From a bacterium (GTDB lineage: Bacteria; CAIWAD01), in contig JAUIFJ010000056.1 of assembly GCA_030429345.1 (NCBI GenBank), positions 1 through 13,704 on the forward strand: DNA of 13,704 nucleotides, read 5' to 3'. Position 1 is the first letter of the stretch; each line of letters starts with the position of its first letter. A model generated the notes under the pieces. The model was not told where the DNA came from and did no database searches. It saw only the letters and a list, made by a program, of their open reading frames with translations. This document shows, piece by piece, positions 2,761-13,704 of this stretch. Both the position numbers and the translations under genes were made by a program.

Positions 2761-4353
2761 GTGACAAACCGAACAGGGGCCGATCCGCCGCTTTCGAAGG
2801 ATGATCTGGCACTGGCGGAGATTCTGCTGGATCCGGTGAAGTTCGCCGCGGCCTTCATGCGCTCGCTGGACGCCCCGGAGCCGAACACGCCGCTCATTCT
2901 CTGGCCGCACCAGCAGGAGGATGTGCGGGACAACCACCCGCAGATCGTGCACCAGGACGGACGCGCGGTGGGCAAGACCGTGGACATCACGGTCCTTGTC
3001 TGCCACGAAGGTGTGACAGGCAAGAATTCCAAGACGCTGATCACCACGCCCAACGAGGGGCATCTGCAAAAAATCATCGAGGAGGTGGAGGACCAGATTT
3101 TCGGGTCCGATTTCCTGAACGCCCAGGTGGCCGTGGATCCCCGGTCGGGACGGCAGCTCATTACCCGCAAGCCCTACTACCAGATCAAGTGGAAGTCGGG
3201 GGTGATCCAGTATTTCCGGCCTGCAGGTTCCGCGGGGGCGGCCGTTCGATCCCTGCACTGTGCGCGGGTCATTGTCGACGAGGCCGCGATGTACCCGGAG
3301 GCGGCGTGGAAGGCGGTGTTCCGGGTGCTGAATCCGGGCGCCCAGCTCAGGGTGTACACGAATCCCAACGGCCTCAGGAACACCCAGTACTACCGGCTGA
3401 CCCAGGATGGCTCGGGATCCAAGGTCTACAAGTGGCCCAGCTGGATCGTCCCCACCTGGACCCAGGCAGACCGGGAGATGGCGATTCGGCGCTACGGCGG
3501 GGAAGACAGCCCGGGCTACCAGCACGAGGTGGCGGGAGAGCACGGGGCACCCAGTTACGCGGCCTTCAACCACAAGCAGTACCAGGGCTGCGAAAGAAAG
3601 CTCGAGGGCCGGTACCGCTGCGTGCGCATCGAGGGCGAGGAGTTCGTGGCCATCCAGAGCGTGGACGAGGCGTGGGACCGGCTGGCCTACCGGTTGGACC
3701 TGCAGGAGCGTCCGGGCGGCACCTTCTGGCTGGGAGGGGACCTGGGCTACACCAACGACCCCTCGGAGCTGACGGTCTGGGAAGAGGACGAGAAGGGACG
3801 GCTGATCCCTGTCCTGCGCGTGCACAACGAACGCCTGCCCTACACCTACCAGGCAGCGCTGATCGCCATCCTCGACGACCACTTCGCCTTCGCCGGCCTG
3901 GGCATCGATGGTGGATCGAACGGCGCGGCCGTCGAGCACATCCTGACCACCGAGGACCGCTACGCCAACTACCAGTTCGCGCACCGCCTGGTGGCCTTCG
4001 ATTTCGGCGGCTCGACCACCGTGGGCTACGATCCGGAGGGCCGGCCCAAGACCCGGTACACCAAGGAGCTGATGACCAGTCTGATCAGCGGCCGGCTTTC
4101 CAGCCGCACGATCCTGTTTCCCGCCGAGGGCGTGGATCCGGACTGGGCGGACCAGTTCCTGCGCCAGACCTACAGCATCATGCCCAGCGGCCGGATTGTC
4201 TACAGCAAGGGCAACGACCACATCATCGACAGCGCGCGGACCGCGATTCTGAGAATCGAGCGTGAGCGCCTCAAGCAGTACGACACGAACGACCAGGGGC
4301 TGGTCAAGGCGGAGTTCGTGATGCCCGTGATGACCGGGAAAGTCTTCGAGTAG
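2761..4353 (+). CDS. terL: phage terminase large subunit (packaging ATPase-nuclease)
   Basis: This 530-residue protein drives DNA into the prohead and cuts it. The ATPase domain shows a Walker A GRAVGKT at residues 67-73, a Walker B ARVIVDEA ending near residue 175 (Asp173, Glu174) and a coupling-type motif YTNPNG near 199-204. The C-terminal RNase H-like nuclease has candidate metal-binding acidic residues Asp327 (GGDLGYTND), Asp383 (GIDGGSNG) and Asp490 (DHIIDSAR). The length is normal for the family. The start is GTG at 2761, preceded by AGAAGG; the GTG lies inside a copy of the repeated octamer GTGTGACA. The next gene's Shine-Dalgarno overlaps its stop, so the packaging genes are one operon. 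No small terminase gene is seen beside it; the integrase occupies that place. Confidence 0.93.
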   Translation: MTNRTGADPPLSKDDLALAEILLDPVKFAAAFMRSLDAPEPNTPLILWPHQQEDVRDNHPQIVHQDGRAVGKTVDITVLVCHEGVTGKNSKTLITTPNEGHLQKIIEEVEDQIFGSDFLNAQVAVDPRSGRQLITRKPYYQIKWKSGVIQYFRPAGSAGAAVRSLHCARVIVDEAAMYPEAAWKAVFRVLNPGAQLRVYTNPNGLRNTQYYRLTQDGSGSKVYKWPSWIVPTWTQADREMAIRRYGGEDSPGYQHEVAGEHGAPSYAAFNHKQYQGCERKLEGRYRCVRIEGEEFVAIQSVDEAWDRLAYRLDLQERPGGTFWLGGDLGYTNDPSELTVWEEDEKGRLIPVLRVHNERLPYTYQAALIAILDDHFAFAGLGIDGGSNGAAVEHILTTEDRYANYQFAHRLVAFDFGGSTTVGYDPEGRPKTRYTKELMTSLISGRLSSRTILFPAEGVDPDWADQFLRQTYSIMPSGRIVYSKGNDHIIDSARTAILRIERERLKQYDTNDQGLVKAEFVMPVMTGKVFE

Positions 4354-4361
4354 GAGGATCC

Positions 4362-5942
4362 ATGCACATTCGTGATCTGTGGCCCTGGGGTCAGCGGCCG
4401 GCGATGAAGAGCGAGGGTGTAGCACACGAGCCGGCGCCCGCGTCTGTTAGCAAGGAGCTGGAAGCCGATTCCGTGATCGATGCCCCGGCGCTGAACTCGA
4501 GCGCCGCGACCATCGATCCCTTCGGCAGCCTGCTGACCACGGAGGGCGTTCCCAAGGACTGGCGCGACCGGGCCAAGCGGGCCTGGAAGTACTACCAGGA
4601 AGAGCCCATCGTCAACAACTGCATCAACGCCTGGCGTACCCTGGCCCTGGGCGAGGACTTCACCATCCTGTGCTCGGATTCCGAGCTGAAGAAAGAGCTG
4701 CTGGAGCTGAAGCGGCGGCTGGGGCTGAAGCGCTGGCTGAAGGACCAGCTGCTGCAGCTATTGACCAAGGGGGAAGCCGCTGCCTTCAAGGAGTACGGCG
4801 GCGCACCCACCGGCAAGAACGAGGATGGCCGGCCTACGTATACGGACTTCGCGCGAGTCAAGGTCTTGAACCCTGCGGACTTGAAGCCCACGGTAGAGGA
4901 CGGAGCGCTGGTCAGGGTCCTGCCGCTGATCACTCAGATCGAGGGCGGGGAGCCCACAGAGGGCAAGCCGATTCCGCTTCCGCAGTTCCGCCGCTGGATC
5001 TGGGACGCCCCGGACTTCGCGGAACATGGAACGTCCATGATCCTACCGGCCTTCGAGTCCATCGAGCTGCTGCGTGACTACCGGCGCGCGGACCGCGCGA
5101 TCGCCAAGCGCTGGGCCACGCCGATCCGACTGATCCAGGTGGGCGGCCAGTTCGGCCGCCAGGTCGTGATGCCGACCCAGGCGCAGATGAACGACGTGAA
5201 GAAGACCTTCGACAACATGGACCCCAAGCAGGGGGCGGTGGTCCCGTTCTACGTGGAGGTCAAGACCTACGGCGCCGAGGGCGAGGCGCTGAAGACGGAA
5301 GAGAAAATCAAGGAAGCCAAGACCGACATCATCGTCGCCATGGGCTTCACCCGGGCGCTCGTGTCCGGCGATGGCTCCAACTTCAGTACCGCCAGCATGG
5401 GCTTTGCGAAGATCCAGCTGATGCTGGCCGACCTGCGGGACATGGCACACGAAATGCTGGCCTGGGTGATCGACGACTACCTGGAGATGAAGGGCAAGCG
5501 GGACGCGGATGTCCAGATCGTCTTCCCCGGCATCGACTTGTCTGCCACGTCGGACACGCGGAAAGTCCTGGTGGAGATGTACGACAGAGGCCTGATCTCG
5601 GTCAACACCCTGCAGACCATGATCGGGCTGAACCCGGCAGTCGAAACGGCGCAGATGAAGAGTGAAACCCGCCAGGTGGCAGCACCGCTGACGCCCGGCG
5701 ACATCGTGGGCCTGGCCCAGCAGGGCATGCTGACCAATGAGCAGGTGGCCTTCCTCTTGAACCTGGCCGAGCGGCTGCAGGGCTTTCAGGGCAAGGAACC
5801 TTCCACGGAGGATCCGGAAGCCGGCGCAAGCATGACCGGCGATCCCAGCGGCCTGTATCACGCGGTGAATCGGCAACTGGAAGAGAGTGCGCGCGCCCGG
5901 GTGGACAAGCTGCTGGCCACGCTCGACGACCAGGCCGCGTGA
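4362..5942 (+). CDS. phage portal protein
   Basis: This 526-residue protein is very probably the portal, the dodecameric ring at the unique capsid vertex through which DNA enters. After a variable, Ser/Ala-rich N-terminus (about 1-60) comes a long alpha/beta body. A typical C-terminal portal signature follows: an AMGFTRALVSGDGSNFSTAS segment at about 328-347, then a long helix (MLADLRDMAHEMLAWVIDDY) and RGLISVNTLQTMIGLNP near 410, as in many siphophage and myophage portals. ATG 4362 has AGGAGG 6 bases upstream, and that site overlaps the terminase stop. Its own stop overlaps the GTG start of the MuF gene (5939-5942), matching the usual portal-MuF pairing. The identity rests on order and on these motifs. 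Confidence 0.88.
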   Translation: MHIRDLWPWGQRPAMKSEGVAHEPAPASVSKELEADSVIDAPALNSSAATIDPFGSLLTTEGVPKDWRDRAKRAWKYYQEEPIVNNCINAWRTLALGEDFTILCSDSELKKELLELKRRLGLKRWLKDQLLQLLTKGEAAAFKEYGGAPTGKNEDGRPTYTDFARVKVLNPADLKPTVEDGALVRVLPLITQIEGGEPTEGKPIPLPQFRRWIWDAPDFAEHGTSMILPAFESIELLRDYRRADRAIAKRWATPIRLIQVGGQFGRQVVMPTQAQMNDVKKTFDNMDPKQGAVVPFYVEVKTYGAEGEALKTEEKIKEAKTDIIVAMGFTRALVSGDGSNFSTASMGFAKIQLMLADLRDMAHEMLAWVIDDYLEMKGKRDADVQIVFPGIDLSATSDTRKVLVEMYDRGLISVNTLQTMIGLNPAVETAQMKSETRQVAAPLTPGDIVGLAQQGMLTNEQVAFLLNLAERLQGFQGKEPSTEDPEAGASMTGDPSGLYHAVNRQLEESARARVDKLLATLDDQAA

Positions 5943-8900
5943 GCCTGCCCTGGCACACGGGGCTGGACCAGCCTACTCTGCAGGCCCTGGTCTCCGAGGG
6001 CCTGCTGCTGGTTCGCGGCTCCCGCGCCTGGGCCGCGTTCAGCCCCTCGCAACGGGAGCTGATCGAGGAGGCGACCGCCCAGTCCCTGGCCCAGGTGGGG
6101 AAGATGACGGACCAGGTGCTGGTGCAGTCGCTGAAGCAGCTGGACCAGGCGGCCAAGGCCATCCACGCCGAGGTCCTCAAGCTGGGGGATCTCTCGCAGT
6201 TCACGGGAGACCGGCTGCCAGGCAAGCAGGTCGAGCTCGCGCGGCTGAAGGCGCTGGAGAAGTCCATCCAGCAGACGGGCGCGCGGCTGAAGAAAGACCT
6301 GCAGCTGGTCTACAAGGGCGTCACACAGGAAGCGGCCACAGCCGGCATCGAGGGTGTGCTTTCCAAGTTGGGGGCGCTCAAGCTCCCGGGCTACAAGGAC
6401 CTTCCGCTGGTCGACAAGCAGGACCTGGCAGCCGGGGCCTTCAGCCTCGTCAGCGACCAGGCCTTCGACTTCCTGACCGGCTATCAGCTGCAGCTGCTGG
6501 GCAAGCTCTCCGACGATCTGGTGGCCGGCACCAAGGCCGCCATCTCCGCTGGCATCCTGCAGGGCCAGGGCCCGGCGCGCATCGCCCGTCAGATCGGCGA
6601 CATCGTCACCGACCCCGCGGAGTTCAAGAAGGCCGGCAAGACCGTCTTCCGCAGCGTCCAGCATCGCGCCGAACTGATCGCCCGCTCGGAGACCATGCGC
6701 GCCTACAACCAGGGGGCGCGGAAGTTCGAGCAGCAGATTGGTGTCACGCGCCTGACCTGGCTGACCGCGGGGGACGAGCGCCTGTGCCCCGAATGCGAGC
6801 CCCTGGACGGCCGCGAGTACGCGATCGAGAAGTTCCCGCCCCAGCCGCTTCACCCCGCTTGCCGCTGCACCCATGTTCCAGCGCCCGGATCACTGGACCA
6901 GATCAAGGACCTGCCGGCCATCCAGGAGGTGGTGACGAAGCACACGCTGGGCCAGCAGGCGGTGAAACAGGCGCTGAAGACCGGGGATTTCTCCGCCCTG
7001 ACGGTCCGGCAGCTGCGCGAGCTGGCCAAGCAGAAGGGGATCCCGATTTCCCGCTCGAAGGCCTACCAAACCCAGCTGCTTGCCGATGTCTCTGGACTCG
7101 ATGTGTCACACCTGCAAGGCCTGAGCACCGCGGAGTTCAAAAAGCTGCTGAAACAGCACAAGGTCAGCCCGATCAAGTCCCGCGAGGACCTGGTGAAGGA
7201 CCTGCTGGGCGAGGGGGCGGAAAAGCATGCGGCCAAGCTGGCGGCGCTGAAGCAGGCGGAGAAGGCGGCGAAAGAGGCAGCGGAGAAAGCCAAGATCGCT
7301 GCCCAGAAGGCGGCCGAGGAAGCGAAGGCCAAGCAGGAAGCCACCGAAGCCCTGTACTCCAAGGTGGGGAAGCTGGTAGAGACCGCGAAGCCCGAGACCT
7401 TCGATGCGTATTACACGGCTGCCTATGAAGTGGGGGCCGTCCTGGAGAACGCGCAGAAGGTGCTGTCCATCGAGGCCCTCAAGCCGTTCAAGGCCCAGAT
7501 CGCCAAGGCCTACGATGGCTTCCTCGCCTCACTGAAGGGCATGAAGCAGAAGCAGCTGCGTGATCTGCTCAAGGCACACGGGGTCAAGAACTTTCAGTGG
7601 TACACGAAGGACGAGACCCTGTCCTACATCCTGAACCCGGAGAAGCGACCGGAGCTGATCGCCCAGGTGGCACAGAAACTGAAGGCGGTGAAAGCGAAGA
7701 ACGCGGCGAAGAAAGCCGCAAAACCGAAGCCCGTGCCGCCGGAGCCCAAGGCCCCGGTAATCCAGCTGGCCAACCAGGCGGATCAGGAGTGGGAGGCGCT
7801 CAAGGACGGCAGCACCTTCGTCTTCGACGGCGACGCCCGCAGCCTGGGCGGCGCGCACTCCAAGTATTTCTTCCGTGATGCGAATGGCAACCGCTGGCTG
7901 TTCAAACCGATTGCCGAGGAATTCCGCGCATGGGGCGATGAGGTGGCCTACCGGATCCAGCGGGAGATCGATCCCAACGCCGTGGAAGCCCGGTTCATCC
8001 GCTTGGAGGTGAAGGGCCGCCGGCTGGCCGGCTCGATTCAGCGGATGAAGACCGGGCTGAAGGAAGTCAGCGACTACGGCGGCCTGGGACTGGACACACT
8101 GCAGGCGGAGGAGCTGCTGCAGCTGCAGCGTGAGCACGTGATCGACTGGCTGATCTCCAACCACGACAGCCATGTGAACCAGTTTCTGCGCGCGCAGGAT
8201 GGGAAGGTCTACGGCATCGACAAGGGGCAGTTGTTCAAGTTCTTCGGCAAGGACAAGCTGAACCTGACCTACTACCCCAACCGGGTACACAATGCGGGCG
8301 AGCCCGTGTACAACCAGCTGCTGCGCCTGCACCGGAACGGGAAGATCCAGCTGGACCTTGGGGCCACGGAAGAATTCATCCGGCGCGCCCAGGCGATCAC
8401 GGACAGTGCGTACAAGGAGATGCTGCGGCCCTATGCGGAGCGCCGGTTTGCCGGTCAGCCCGGAGCCCTGGCCGACTTCCTGAACGGGGCGGTGAAGCGC
8501 AAACAGACGCTGCGCGAAGACTTTGAGCGCCTGTACAGCGAGGTGGAATCCGCGCGGACGGGAAAGAAGGTGACCTTCCGCTTCGGAGAGAAGGGGCCTG
8601 CGGCGCCGGCACCCGCTGCACCCGCGGATGCTCCAGAGCTCACCTGGGGGCGCGACGCTCGCTTCGATCTGTCACACGAGGTCAAGGAGATCCGGGACAA
8701 CGGCTGGCAGGGCAAGTCCCTGGGCATCGATTCGGATCAGATCGAGGACCAGAATGTCCTGGTGCGCGAGGTCCTGCTGCCCGGGGGCGGGAAGCGCACG
8801 ATGATGGAGCTGCGGCTTCGTCCTGAGGCCGATCAACGACTGACCCAGCTGCTAAAGCAGCAGGCAGGGCACTCGCCGTCAGAAGTGTATACGGACAACT

Positions 8901-10348
8901 ACTGGCATTCCATCCTGAACGCGGCGAAGACAGTGAACCATCATCTGTCCGATCTGGGATTCAATGACAGTACGATCAATACGATGCTGTCTCACGGCCC
9001 TGAGCTTCTGAAGCTGGCCAAGGCTGGAAACGTGGTTGAGCGAAAGATGGCGGCGCAGTACCTGGATGCCATGGAGCAGATCCAGCAGAAGGTTGTGGCG
9101 GCCAGAGCGGGCAAGACACCGGATCCGCTGCCGATCCTGAAGCAGTTCCAGGCGGATCCCAAGGATTTGAAGACCCTCAGCAAACCGGTGGCTTCTGATC
9201 CAGAGTACACAGTGACCGTGCGCGATCGTGTGACAGCGGACCGCACGCGCGCCAAGGGCGATCGCCTGGTGTTGGAGAAGGACAACGTACCGCTGAGTGA
9301 GTTCGATCACCGGCTCGCCGATCAGGCGGCGGAGTTCGAGGTCGACATGGGTGACGGCATCCAGGTGGTCTACCGTCCCTACCGCAGCCTGACGCAGCAG
9401 CACCTGTTCGCGGTCCAGGGCCGGATGACCGTGCGCGCCGCCGGCAAGGTCAGCGAGGCCCGGGTGGCACAGGCTCTGCAGAAGCTGCAGAAGCTGGGAC
9501 TGGACACCACGCCATCGACGGCAGCCCAGGAAGAGCTGATGTACTTGCAGAAGACGGCCTACGCCGCCAACATGGACCAGACGCCGCTGTTCCAGCAGGC
9601 GGCAGCCCGAGCCGCGGAGGCCGAGTCCACGGAGGCCGCGGTTGCCGTGTGGCGTGAGGCCTGGTCCTCTCAGCTGGGCGTGCCGGACGCGACCAAGCTT
9701 CCGGCCTACAAGCCCCAGGGCCACTACCAGTATTCCACGGTGCGCGGTGCCGGCAGCCAGGGCGGGATCCGCGTCCAGGAGCGCTTCGACCTGGACGACA
9801 AGACCTTTCAGAAATCGATGAAGGGACACGTCCTGGTCCATGAGATCACGAAGGGCGATATCGAGGAGTTTTTCGAAGTTGTGCTGCCGACGAACCGGGC
9901 CTTCGTTCCCACCGCTGATCGTTTCACCTCCGGTGTGCCGATCGGCGGGATGAGCCCCGGTTCCGACATGAATTCCGGCGGGGCCAGTTACTTTTTCACG
10001 CGCATCAAATCGCGCAGAAGCCTGGGCGGGGATCAGATCCGATTCAAAATCGACATGCTGAAGCGCGCGGACGCAATCAGCTATCCCCGTGACCTGTTCG
10101 GTCGTGTGACAGGAACAACAGTGCGGGACAACCGGCGCAGTGATCTTGCAGGCTTCAAGGCCAACGCGAGGTCCTCGAGCAACGAAACGGACTTCAAGGG
10201 GCCGGTCACCATTCTGGACAACCTGGATTCAATCGGTGTGCGCAGCCCCTTGAAACGAGATCGACTCTTGAAGACCTTCCGCAAGAATGGTATCACGGCC
10301 CTGCCCGACGGCAGGCCCATCGAAGATGTGATTGTGGTGGCCAATTGA
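5939..10348 (+). CDS. giant MuF-type head protein with kinase-like and ADP-ribosyltransferase-like segments
   Basis: This 1469-residue protein is three to five times the usual MuF length. The MuF (phage Mu gpF-like) head-morphogenesis domain ends at about residue 312: AELIARSETMRAYN (244-257), then Cys283, Cys286, His305, Cys308 and Cys310 in DERLCPECEPLDG and LHPACRC. SAP/HeH-like units follow at about 354-384, 395-423 and 535-565, with an Ala/Lys/Glu coiled coil at about 428-475 and a Lys/Pro-rich linker near 600. Residues about 625-800 look kinase-like (Lys656, Glu668, Asp743, Asn747, Asp761). A long helical, partly beta region follows. The last 170 residues carry a possible ADP-ribosyltransferase triad: His1301 (LVHEIT), Tyr1351 (GGASYFFTRI) and Glu1416 (NETDF). 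The GTG start overlaps the portal stop by 4 bases with no good Shine-Dalgarno, suggesting coupled translation. MuF is firm; the enzymatic roles are inference. Confidence 0.88.
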   Translation: MSLPWHTGLDQPTLQALVSEGLLLVRGSRAWAAFSPSQRELIEEATAQSLAQVGKMTDQVLVQSLKQLDQAAKAIHAEVLKLGDLSQFTGDRLPGKQVELARLKALEKSIQQTGARLKKDLQLVYKGVTQEAATAGIEGVLSKLGALKLPGYKDLPLVDKQDLAAGAFSLVSDQAFDFLTGYQLQLLGKLSDDLVAGTKAAISAGILQGQGPARIARQIGDIVTDPAEFKKAGKTVFRSVQHRAELIARSETMRAYNQGARKFEQQIGVTRLTWLTAGDERLCPECEPLDGREYAIEKFPPQPLHPACRCTHVPAPGSLDQIKDLPAIQEVVTKHTLGQQAVKQALKTGDFSALTVRQLRELAKQKGIPISRSKAYQTQLLADVSGLDVSHLQGLSTAEFKKLLKQHKVSPIKSREDLVKDLLGEGAEKHAAKLAALKQAEKAAKEAAEKAKIAAQKAAEEAKAKQEATEALYSKVGKLVETAKPETFDAYYTAAYEVGAVLENAQKVLSIEALKPFKAQIAKAYDGFLASLKGMKQKQLRDLLKAHGVKNFQWYTKDETLSYILNPEKRPELIAQVAQKLKAVKAKNAAKKAAKPKPVPPEPKAPVIQLANQADQEWEALKDGSTFVFDGDARSLGGAHSKYFFRDANGNRWLFKPIAEEFRAWGDEVAYRIQREIDPNAVEARFIRLEVKGRRLAGSIQRMKTGLKEVSDYGGLGLDTLQAEELLQLQREHVIDWLISNHDSHVNQFLRAQDGKVYGIDKGQLFKFFGKDKLNLTYYPNRVHNAGEPVYNQLLRLHRNGKIQLDLGATEEFIRRAQAITDSAYKEMLRPYAERRFAGQPGALADFLNGAVKRKQTLREDFERLYSEVESARTGKKVTFRFGEKGPAAPAPAAPADAPELTWGRDARFDLSHEVKEIRDNGWQGKSLGIDSDQIEDQNVLVREVLLPGGGKRTMMELRLRPEADQRLTQLLKQQAGHSPSEVYTDNYWHSILNAAKTVNHHLSDLGFNDSTINTMLSHGPELLKLAKAGNVVERKMAAQYLDAMEQIQQKVVAARAGKTPDPLPILKQFQADPKDLKTLSKPVASDPEYTVTVRDRVTADRTRAKGDRLVLEKDNVPLSEFDHRLADQAAEFEVDMGDGIQVVYRPYRSLTQQHLFAVQGRMTVRAAGKVSEARVAQALQKLQKLGLDTTPSTAAQEELMYLQKTAYAANMDQTPLFQQAAARAAEAESTEAAVAVWREAWSSQLGVPDATKLPAYKPQGHYQYSTVRGAGSQGGIRVQERFDLDDKTFQKSMKGHVLVHEITKGDIEEFFEVVLPTNRAFVPTADRFTSGVPIGGMSPGSDMNSGGASYFFTRIKSRRSLGGDQIRFKIDMLKRADAISYPRDLFGRVTGTTVRDNRRSDLAGFKANARSSSNETDFKGPVTILDNLDSIGVRSPLKRDRLLKTFRKNGITALPDGRPIEDVIVVAN

Positions 10349-11230: not shown

Positions 11231-13704
11231 ATGCATTTGTGCGAGACGGTGATGCCCTTTCTGACCGTGGAAGCCGCCCTGTTTCCCGAACTGTGTGCCG
11301 AGGCCAAGGGGCCTCCCATTCATGGCGTGCAGTACATCGGGAACAAGCGCCAATCCCTTGACTGGATCCGGGCCCAGGTCCCGGACGGGGTGACGCGCGT
11401 GGTCGATGCTTTCTCCGGCGGGGGCAGCGTCTCCTACATGTTCAAGCGCGAGGGATACCATGTAATCGCCAACGACTCCCTGAAATGGCCCTGGCACATC
11501 GCGCGGGCCACCGTGGTCAATCAGGGCCAGAAGGTGAGTGAGGATGAGGTGAAAGCGCTGCTGGAACCGAATCCGAAGGCCGGCAGCTGGGCGCGCACGC
11601 ACTACAAGACCAAGTTCTGGAAGCCGGGGGTCCACCAGCTGGTGGATGAGATCCGCGAGAACGTGGACGCCTTGTCGGGCTTCAAGCGCGACATCGCCCT
11701 CGCCGCCCTGGGGGCCACCATGCTTTCGGCGCGCGGCACCTTCCCCCAGTTCACGGTGCCCAAGATCGGCGAGAGGGCGTACACGCCAAAGCAGTTCAAG
11801 GCGCGCTACGCCCAAGTGATCCAGCGGCTGAACTCGATGGTGTTCAAGGGGCCCAAGGCCGAGGCCCGCTGTCTGGACGTGCGCGCTTTGCTGAAGACCG
11901 TCAAGGCCGATGCCGTGTACTTCGATCCCCCCTATGTGTCCGGCATCCTTACCCACAACTACAGCTACTACTACCACGCGGTCGAAGCCGTGATGGTGAA
12001 GGGCGAGGGCCGGAATCCGGATCCGGAGACCGCGGGCTCGACGGAGAAGACCCAGGAGAGCCTGGGCAAGAAGAACATCGGCCCGTTCTTCGAAGAGCTC
12101 TTCGCGGCAGCAGAGCACATCCCCACCTGGCTGCTGTCCTACCGGGACGCGGCCTTCCCTTCCGAGAAGGAGCTCAAGGAGCTGATCACGGCGGCAGGCC
12201 GCGAGGTCGACCTGCAGTCCCGCGAGCACGAGTACACGATGGCCGGGACAAAGCGGGGAGAGGCACCATCGAAGGCGAAGGAGCTGCTCTTCATCGGCCG
12301 GAAGGGCAAGCAGGCAAAGAACACGCAGCAGAAAGCGCCGGCAGCGGCGTCCAAGGCAAGCACGAAGGAGGACCCGAGGATGAAGGTGCCGAGCATTCAG
12401 CTGGCCGCGCAGGATGCCGCGCTGCCTGCGGACTACTGGACCCAGGAAGCACGCGCCATCGTGGCCGAGCACGGCTGGCCGGGCCTGGCCCTGGCCTGTG
12501 CCGTGGTCGACGCCGACCACCCGGGATGCGAGCTGGAGGACGGGCTGCCCAAGGCCTTCGAGGCCTACCACCTGCCGGTGATGCAGCGCGCCGAGAACGG
12601 GGAGCTGAAGGTGCTCCCCGCCGCCGTGGATTCCTCGATCGCCGCGCTCGCAGACGAGGGCGGCCGCCCGCGGCTGCCCGCCCAGGCACTCTCTCTGGCA
12701 GAGAAGAAGCTGCAGTCCCTGAAGGACTGGAGCCTGGCCTGCGAGGCCGTGGATGCTTTCGCCAGCCTGTCCGAGGAGGAGACGCAGGGGGTGACGGCCC
12801 CGCCGGCGCCCGTGGTTCCCGAGGGCACTCAGCTGCTGGCCATCGCCGGCAGCGGACCCCGTGTGCTGCCCATGCTCTCCAAGGCCCAGCTGGTGGCCGT
12901 GGCGGCCAAGGAGGACGAACAGGGCGATCACGCCATCAAGTTCATCCTGTGTCACGCCGGGACCAACAAGAACGGCGATCACTTCACGGCCGAGGAGCTG
13001 AAGAAGGCGGTCACGTCCGCGGCGGGCGTCAAGATCAACCTGAAGCACGGGCAGCAGGCGCAGGACATCGTCGGCAAGACCGAGACTGCATCCTTCGAGG
13101 ATACAGACGGCGGCCGCATTGTCTGCGCCGGCCGGCTGTTCACGAAGGAGGATGAGCTGGCGGCCAAGGCGCGCCGGCTGATCAAGGAGAACATCATCAC
13201 CAAGGTCTCGATGGAGTGCAGCTACACCGAAGGTGAGTGCTCTGTCTGCGGCGAGACCTACAAGAACTTCGACGAGCGCTGCGAGCACCTGAAGGAGAGC
13301 AAGGGCGGCACCGTCGACGGCAAGGAGGTCTACGCCATCCTGAAGGGCGTGACCTTCAGCGGCGCCGGCCTTCTGGAAGGCTACGAGCCCGCCGATCCCC
13401 GGGCGGACATCACCTCCATGGCCTACGAGCGCGACGGCCGCATGCACGCCATGTCCTACGGACTCTACGGGCCGTCGGACAAGCCCGAGTCCATGAAGGA
13501 AGTGCTGAACCAGGAAGAGATCCGCGAGGACCTGTGGAAGACGCAGGACGCCTTTCGCCGGGTCACCGATTCCCTGGTGATGTCCTTCGTCAAGGAGAGC
13601 AGCGAGCTCTCGGACGTTGAAAGCAAGCTGAAGAAAGCGGGGGCCGACTTCGCCGGCCGCGTGATCCAGATCCTGAAATCCATCAACACCAACACGGACA
13701 AGGA
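11231..13704 (+). CDS. DNA adenine methyltransferase fused in frame to a prohead-protease-like domain (3' end outside window)
   Basis: One frame stays open for at least 824 codons to the right edge. Residues 1 to about 355 form a D12-class (Dam-like) N6-adenine methyltransferase: GVQYIGNKRQSLDWI (32-46), the AdoMet-binding VVDAFSGGGSVSYMF (57-71) and the catalytic DPPY (232-235). A Lys/Ala/Gln linker follows (about 356-383). From Met384 comes a region of unknown fold and then a capsid-maturation-protease-like domain. That domain has HAGTNKNGDHF near 575, His606 (NLKHGQ) and Ser660 (KVSMEC) 54 residues apart, a CxxC...CxH cluster (Cys670, Cys673, Cys684, His686) and a VTFSGAGLLEGYEPADPRAD segment. 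The protease would process head proteins before DNA filling. The ATG at 11231 lacks a Shine-Dalgarno; Met at 11252 is an alternative start. An internal start at 12380 could make the protease alone. Confidence 0.8.
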   Translation, partial: MHLCETVMPFLTVEAALFPELCAEAKGPPIHGVQYIGNKRQSLDWIRAQVPDGVTRVVDAFSGGGSVSYMFKREGYHVIANDSLKWPWHIARATVVNQGQKVSEDEVKALLEPNPKAGSWARTHYKTKFWKPGVHQLVDEIRENVDALSGFKRDIALAALGATMLSARGTFPQFTVPKIGERAYTPKQFKARYAQVIQRLNSMVFKGPKAEARCLDVRALLKTVKADAVYFDPPYVSGILTHNYSYYYHAVEAVMVKGEGRNPDPETAGSTEKTQESLGKKNIGPFFEELFAAAEHIPTWLLSYRDAAFPSEKELKELITAAGREVDLQSREHEYTMAGTKRGEAPSKAKELLFIGRKGKQAKNTQQKAPAAASKASTKEDPRMKVPSIQLAAQDAALPADYWTQEARAIVAEHGWPGLALACAVVDADHPGCELEDGLPKAFEAYHLPVMQRAENGELKVLPAAVDSSIAALADEGGRPRLPAQALSLAEKKLQSLKDWSLACEAVDAFASLSEEETQGVTAPPAPVVPEGTQLLAIAGSGPRVLPMLSKAQLVAVAAKEDEQGDHAIKFILCHAGTNKNGDHFTAEELKKAVTSAAGVKINLKHGQQAQDIVGKTETASFEDTDGGRIVCAGRLFTKEDELAAKARRLIKENIITKVSMECSYTEGECSVCGETYKNFDERCEHLKESKGGTVDGKEVYAILKGVTFSGAGLLEGYEPADPRADITSMAYERDGRMHAMSYGLYGPSDKPESMKEVLNQEEIREDLWKTQDAFRRVTDSLVMSFVKESSELSDVESKLKKAGADFAGRVIQILKSINTNTDK
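12365..12382 (+). promoter_or_regulatory. internal ribosome-binding site and ATG before the protease part
   Basis: AAGGAGG (12365-12371), 8 bases and then ATG (12380-12382), in frame with the methyltransferase and lying exactly at the end of the low-complexity linker. It is a better initiation site than that of the full-length frame. It predicts a nested protein starting MKVPSIQLAAQDAAL, in which the putative catalytic pair would be His223 and Ser277. Confidence 0.6.

Follow-up and report, generated by a model that had tools for sequence, protein, structure and literature searches.

In lambda (C/Nu3) and the herpesviruses (UL26/UL26.5), a protease is encoded together with a nested in-frame scaffold. 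Protease and scaffold are likewise nested in phages Mu and PaMx73, and the Mu scaffold gene (Z) starts inside the protease gene (I) (PMC4378225). The I/Z, C/Nu3, and UL26/UL26.5 systems resemble the gene described here in their position just before the major capsid gene and in having a C-terminal scaffold that an internal start also yields as a separate product, as predicted for our gene; unlike it, they have no DNA-modification enzyme ahead of the protease. T4 gp21 shares the fold (Z 11.3) and the motif order (NxN, His, VS) of the protease reported here, but it is a stand-alone protein, its scaffold is separate (gp22), and it has no zinc-knuckle insertion. The closest protease from an isolated phage in our searches was gp19 of Bacillus phage G (hhalign probability 99.2), which has the same zinc knuckle and is encoded near the portal gene; in contrast to the fusion, it is 300 aa long and carries neither a methyltransferase (MTase) nor a long scaffold tail. 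The same protease also occurs near the N-terminus of a 1286-aa hypothetical protein, gp98 of Mycobacterium phage MoMoMixon (L224), which is encoded two genes before the major capsid protein and whose capsid protease role is unannotated.

Iyer et al. (2017; PMC5512222) pointed out assemblin-like peptidases that form the C-termini of polyvalent proteins in phages. Such proteins are like the fusion in combining unrelated enzyme domains with an assemblin-like peptidase toward the C-terminus, whereas the peptidase of the fusion is not strictly terminal and is followed by a scaffold domain; the passages of that paper on polyvalent proteins describe no D12/Dam MTase partner, post-peptidase scaffold domain, or nested scaffold start. 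According to passages in two papers (PMC12810830; PMC5512222), the Dar proteins of phage P1 are ejected with the DNA, and DarB is an adenine MTase-helicase, carried in the head, that protects the DNA on entry as an anti-restriction function. DarB differs from the fusion in its MTase class, in its helicase partner, and in lacking any attached protease or scaffold, and Pfam and PHROGs scans detected no SWI2/SNF2 helicase domain in the fusion. By analogy, we propose that the two proteins may be functional parallels.

The fusion belongs to the same family as phrog_27806, in which the protein from locus L052 matches positions 1–797 of 798 with 1736 bits. That family is annotated as DNA methyltransferase only, its protease and scaffold parts being unrecognized, and among open-licence papers we found no report of a D12 MTase fused to a maturation protease with a nested scaffold. 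An earlier note on this DNA, made from the sequence alone, had called the pairing of MTase and prohead protease unknown as a standard phage gene; given phrog_27806 and the peptidases noted in 2017, the pairing is not altogether unknown. Here we describe one gene that encodes an MTase, a protease, and a scaffold-like domain, with conserved active sites, a nested scaffold start, and a position in a phage head module.

A continuous frame joins both enzyme domains

The window, the whole stretch of DNA analyzed here (13,704 nucleotides), is the entire contig C62 of genome G000. At positions 11231–13704 (+ strand), the list of open reading frames and the translation show 824 codons and no stops, and a D12/Dam-class adenine MTase runs uninterrupted, in the same frame, into a capsid-maturation protease, as the earlier note had reported. 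Because the window is the whole contig, the fused ORF is truncated at 13704, by the contig end alone. A second prophage of the same genome (contig C86) carries a complete homologous copy (L003:4416-7358) that encodes a protein of 980 aa ending in an Ala/Glu-rich, scaffold-like coiled coil; the window gene therefore runs beyond 13704 and has a full length of about 980 aa. The window and C86 copies are 96% identical in protein and 91.8% identical in DNA over 6.9 kb, and the frame is continuous in both. The sequencing error near 12300–12380 that the earlier note feared is not borne out, and a frame error or hidden stop at 12250–12400 is excluded by the C86 copy together with 42 diverged representatives in which a single frame runs through the domains in this order. 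Contig C90 holds the beginning of a third copy. Contigs C62, C86, and C90 derive from three related prophages that are about 91.5% identical and inside which the contigs break; related copies also occur in G001 (two) and G184 (two).

The more likely start codon of the fusion is ATG 11252–11254 rather than ATG 11231, because the MPFLTVEAALFPEL start is conserved in relatives (compared with the starts in G001 and G002); it is preceded by a weak ribosome-binding site. Upstream, also on the + strand, are genes for the large terminase (2761–4353; phrog_2, E 6e-25), the portal protein (4362–5942; phrog_2739, E 5e-30), and a MuF head protein of 1469 aa with a long C-terminal extension (5939–10348; PF04233, E 5e-13). 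In L025, L034, and L052 a major head protein (phrog_2522) is encoded directly downstream of the fusion, a point before which the window stops, and a tail sheath follows farther downstream in relatives; the gene thus lies in the head module of a contractile-tailed phage, and its host element is a Mu-like contractile-tailed prophage. Comparison of the window with C86 gave dN/dS values of 0.05 (MTase), 0.08 (protease), and 0.25 (the linker between them). By these sequence comparisons, both enzyme domains are under purifying selection and are maintained.

The N-terminal domain is a predicted adenine-N6 MTase

Profile, motifs, and predicted fold identify the N-terminal domain (11315–12304, + strand) as a D12/Dam-class adenine-N6 DNA MTase, and the corresponding activity is predicted. 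The family profile covers exactly these nucleotides, and the Pfam MethyltransfD12 model matches aa 35–249 (E 5e-22; 79 bits versus a cut-off of 22). A G.K motif is followed by motif I, DxFxG, and then by the catalytic motif IV, DPPY. The AdoMet-binding motif I of the window reads DAFSGGG (11405–11425) and has its D, F, and G invariant in 56/56 aligned MTase domains; DPPY (11924–11935) is invariant in the same 56, and the invariance of the AdoMet and DPPY motifs extends to both MTase copies of the double forms described below. The AlphaFold model (pLDDT 91.1) is Dam-like, with Mcbe1, EcoDam, and DpnM as best Foldseek matches (E 4e-8 to 2e-6), although with a second structure aligner other Rossmann MTases scored as high as the Dam-like ones. 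Along its entire length, the domain additionally resembles the companion MTases of type II restriction systems (PADLOC PDLC03385, 1.5e-41).

The second domain is a predicted capsid maturation protease

The protease domain (12878–13462, + strand) yielded no match in a Pfam scan of the window protein. Its identity follows from the family profile, from weak matches of the same part in relatives to prohead proteases (Peptidase_S78, S78_2 (XkdF), HK97 proheadase, and PHROG head maturation proteases), and from a confident AlphaFold model (pLDDT 89.7) that matches gp21 and herpesvirus proteases. The match to T4 gp21 (5jbl) covered 128 residues at 3.0 Å. Herpesvirus assemblins scored Z 8–11 against the model (1vzv, Z 11.0), compared with an unrelated background of Z 6–7, and the Foldseek E-values were just 2e-3 to 3e-3. 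An hhalign comparison of the protease profile with T4 gp21 alone was not significant, and a PDB sequence search with the same profile returned zinc fingers only, via the zinc knuckle; the fold comparison resolved the identity. The predicted catalytic residues, His (LKHG; 13046–13048) and Ser (KVSMEC; 13208–13210), correspond to H57 and S111 of the model, are invariant in 44 sequences, and were matched by motif order and fold to H85 (GELNHP) and S140 (GVSSRG) of T4 gp21. After the Ser lies a zinc-knuckle-like insertion, CxxC...CxH (13238–13288), with invariant C121, C124, C135, and H137 (model numbering). On this profile and model evidence, the second domain is a capsid maturation protease of the T4 gp21/assemblin superfamily, with proteolysis as the predicted activity.

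A nested start precedes the scaffold-like domain

Beyond the protease, alignment with C86 identifies a helical protease-scaffold connector (13463–13704, + strand) that ends in AAGGA (13700–13704), the first bases of the nested scaffold gene's ribosome-binding site; the window end cuts this site in half. In C86 the internal scaffold start consists of AAGGAG and a GTG at codon 828, and the window counterpart would fall just past the contig end. The scaffold tail is a coiled coil with a conserved C-terminal helix and a weak scaffold-family match (phrog_206, E 0.02). We counted, by domain, in-frame ATG or GTG codons preceded by a Shine-Dalgarno (SD) match of at least 6 bases and compared the counts with 200 synonymous-codon shuffles within each gene. 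Such a start was present in the protease-scaffold linker of 33/47 representatives, versus 5.2 ± 1.7 (maximum 10) after shuffling, and none was found inside the protease or M1 domain in these 47. An SD of at least 6 nt preceded 28/37 scaffold starts versus 0/37 full-length starts. The combination of a strong SD and an in-frame start before a scaffold-like domain marks a predicted nested gene for the scaffold, the arrangement seen in Mu I/Z.

The fusion is typical of a large family

We ran a profile for each of the two domains against species genomes and viral contigs and classified all loci with HMMs; the 47 representatives are those under 80% identity in which protease and scaffold are present. 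The MTase is fused to protease and scaffold in one frame in 42/47, with one MTase in 22 and two in 20, a proportion that is not unbiased since the sample was seeded with fused proteins. The search for the same two-domain order that the earlier note had suggested thus gave abundant relatives, and its alternative, that relatives always have two separate genes, fails. In the other 5/47 representatives the available frame has no MTase, and two of these (L157 and L066) run off the contig start. Unfused close homologues were found at L047, L158, and L032; because of these and the stand-alone gp19 of phage G, the MTase is not needed for protease function. Two apparent split genes were rejected: that of L070 is a gap of N, and that of L147 reflects damage in the second MTase. 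The second MTase of this locus contains a deletion and an in-frame TAG (L147:7088-7092), which marks it as a decaying two-MTase form.

The same frame occurs in dozens of independent assemblies, complete genomes of isolates included, and the isolate carriers belong to Desulfosarcina, Desulfobulbus, Desulforhopalus, Desulfofustis, Ectothiorhodospira, Acanthopleuribacter, and Sulfidibacter. No isolated phage with the fusion was found among 50,697 phage records. A scan of IMG/VR with a single protein found no relative, whereas alignment-based scans did find relatives. A profile search of 7 genomes from the phylum of G184 gave strong matches, all within long frames of which some reach contig ends, and a single divergent match that is unfused. 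This large family belongs to a widespread and barely described group of bacterial viruses. As a separate observation, L041, L043, L044, L045, and L046 have fusion genes of identical length (1291-aa frame) and near-equal domain scores in MAGs of different phyla, which reflects either a broad-host phage or mis-binning.

In trees, the fused MTases cluster together, separate from solo MTases (99/98), and within this cluster M1 and M2 represent a pair of old paralogues (99/99 for M2; 98/92 for M1 together with the single forms). This topology fits one MTase duplication followed by repeated loss of one copy. The window MTase is of the M1 type, and a solo MTase of G002 is nested inside its clade, so the fusion can be undone.

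Candidate processing sites in the wider family

The linker between MTase and protease (12305–12877, + strand, by the domain boundaries) is Lys/Ala-rich at its start and longer than in most relatives; its Lys/Ala character is conserved solely among the window's close relatives. A motif defined after inspection of the sequences, [LMI]x[STA][DEN]A, had 26 matches in MTase-protease linkers of the family versus 2.8 in shuffled sequence, and 36 versus 2.3 before the scaffold C-terminal helix. It never occurs in the protease, and the MuF protein has 2 matches versus 6.7 expected. In the wider family these positions, one immediately ahead of the protease fold and one close to the C-terminus, are the best candidates for processing and may be cut; the window's own linker has no exact match, and we limit the proposal to the wider family. 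We hypothesize that the MTase is released by self-cleavage, which the earlier note had placed in the Lys/Ala linker.

Proposed role and alternative explanations

We consider it somewhat probable (roughly 0.6) that the scaffold domain draws a few MTase-protease copies into the prohead, where the MTase would be retained or from which it would be released as an anti-restriction enzyme. The weak upstream start would yield few full-length copies and the internal start many scaffold copies; as both products would share the capsid-binding scaffold C-terminus, a few MTase-protease molecules would enter every prohead core. The protease would become active in the prohead and at maturation would destroy the scaffold and probably free the MTase, which would then stay in the head or methylate packaged or ejected DNA as a guard against host restriction. 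The earlier note's suggestion that the fusion couples modification with the assembly of the head, or carries the MTase into the prohead, is strengthened by the scaffold continuation and its putative nested start. A more specific version, in which the prohead core acts as a "modification station" where an MTase freed by maturation methylates DNA in the head at packaging or on ejection, in one- and two-MTase forms, is tentative and somewhat less probable than not.

The main rival, which we regard as unlikely, is that the fusion is an expression arrangement only: an early cytoplasmic cut would let the MTase act before packaging, and the fusion would just time it to late infection. The late-gene position between head genes agrees with this, as does the candidate cleavage motif, which many relatives have in the linker ahead of the protease and which is nearly absent from the MuF protein. 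However, an operon would suffice for timing, and the frame would not have to stay open throughout so diverged a family; the shared C-terminal scaffold would still bring uncut protein into proheads; and gp21- and assemblin-class proteases are typically active only in proheads. Separate initiation of the protease is improbable. Here the fused form would be a minor by-product and ATG 12380 would start a protease-scaffold protein from a possible internal start (12365–12382, + strand) in which AAGGAGG (12365–12371) stands eight bases before the in-frame ATG, a feature kept in C86 and paralleled in G001 and L083, where AAGGAGG accompanies a GTG at the corresponding position. Most relatives have no such start, and strong starts in the MTase-protease linker were no commoner than expected by codon shuffling (7/42 versus 4.6; about 0.6–0.8 probability per protein in the window's clade), so that a separate protease from ATG 12380 was rejected as not above chance.

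Two further explanations fare worse than these. That the MTase serves the prohead core as a structural or DNA-binding element, with no catalytic use, would agree with its constant tethering to a head protein, but the invariance of the AdoMet and DPPY motifs, in both copies of double forms, and the dN/dS of 0.05 make this very improbable. A sequencing or assembly error masking a stop or frame change between two genes might be suspected in a short contig that ends inside the gene; with the same frame in C86, in dozens of independent assemblies, and in complete isolate genomes, its probability is negligible. The fusion links capsid maturation and DNA modification, normally treated apart, in one conserved polypeptide, and it suggests a general route for loading enzymes into the phage head, by fusion ahead of a protease whose C-terminus is also that of the scaffold. 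Should this hold, it would explain how these phages deliver anti-restriction activity with the genome and would offer a genetically encoded way to pack enzymes into capsids. The database family labelled DNA methyltransferase would also provide the capsid protease and scaffold that these phages had seemed to lack. The proposed role is directly testable in cultured carriers, namely Ectothiorhodospira shaposhnikovii, Desulfobulbus rhabdoformis, Desulfosarcina species, and Sulfidibacter corallicola.

Neighboring genes

The MuF protein (5939–10348) contains a SAP-like stretch and an extension of about 1000 aa at its C-terminus with a weak HipA_C-like match; its relatives are similar in length (about 1500 aa), and the extension may be another cargo or effector domain. 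Near its left end, at 281–1016 (− strand), the window encodes a toxin-antitoxin pair, a RelE-family toxin (648–1016; PF06296, E 4e-25) with an MqsA/HTH antitoxin (281–607). A tyrosine recombinase (1767–2480, − strand; PF00589, E 1e-40) lies just left of the head module, which suggests a prophage end or a neighboring element.
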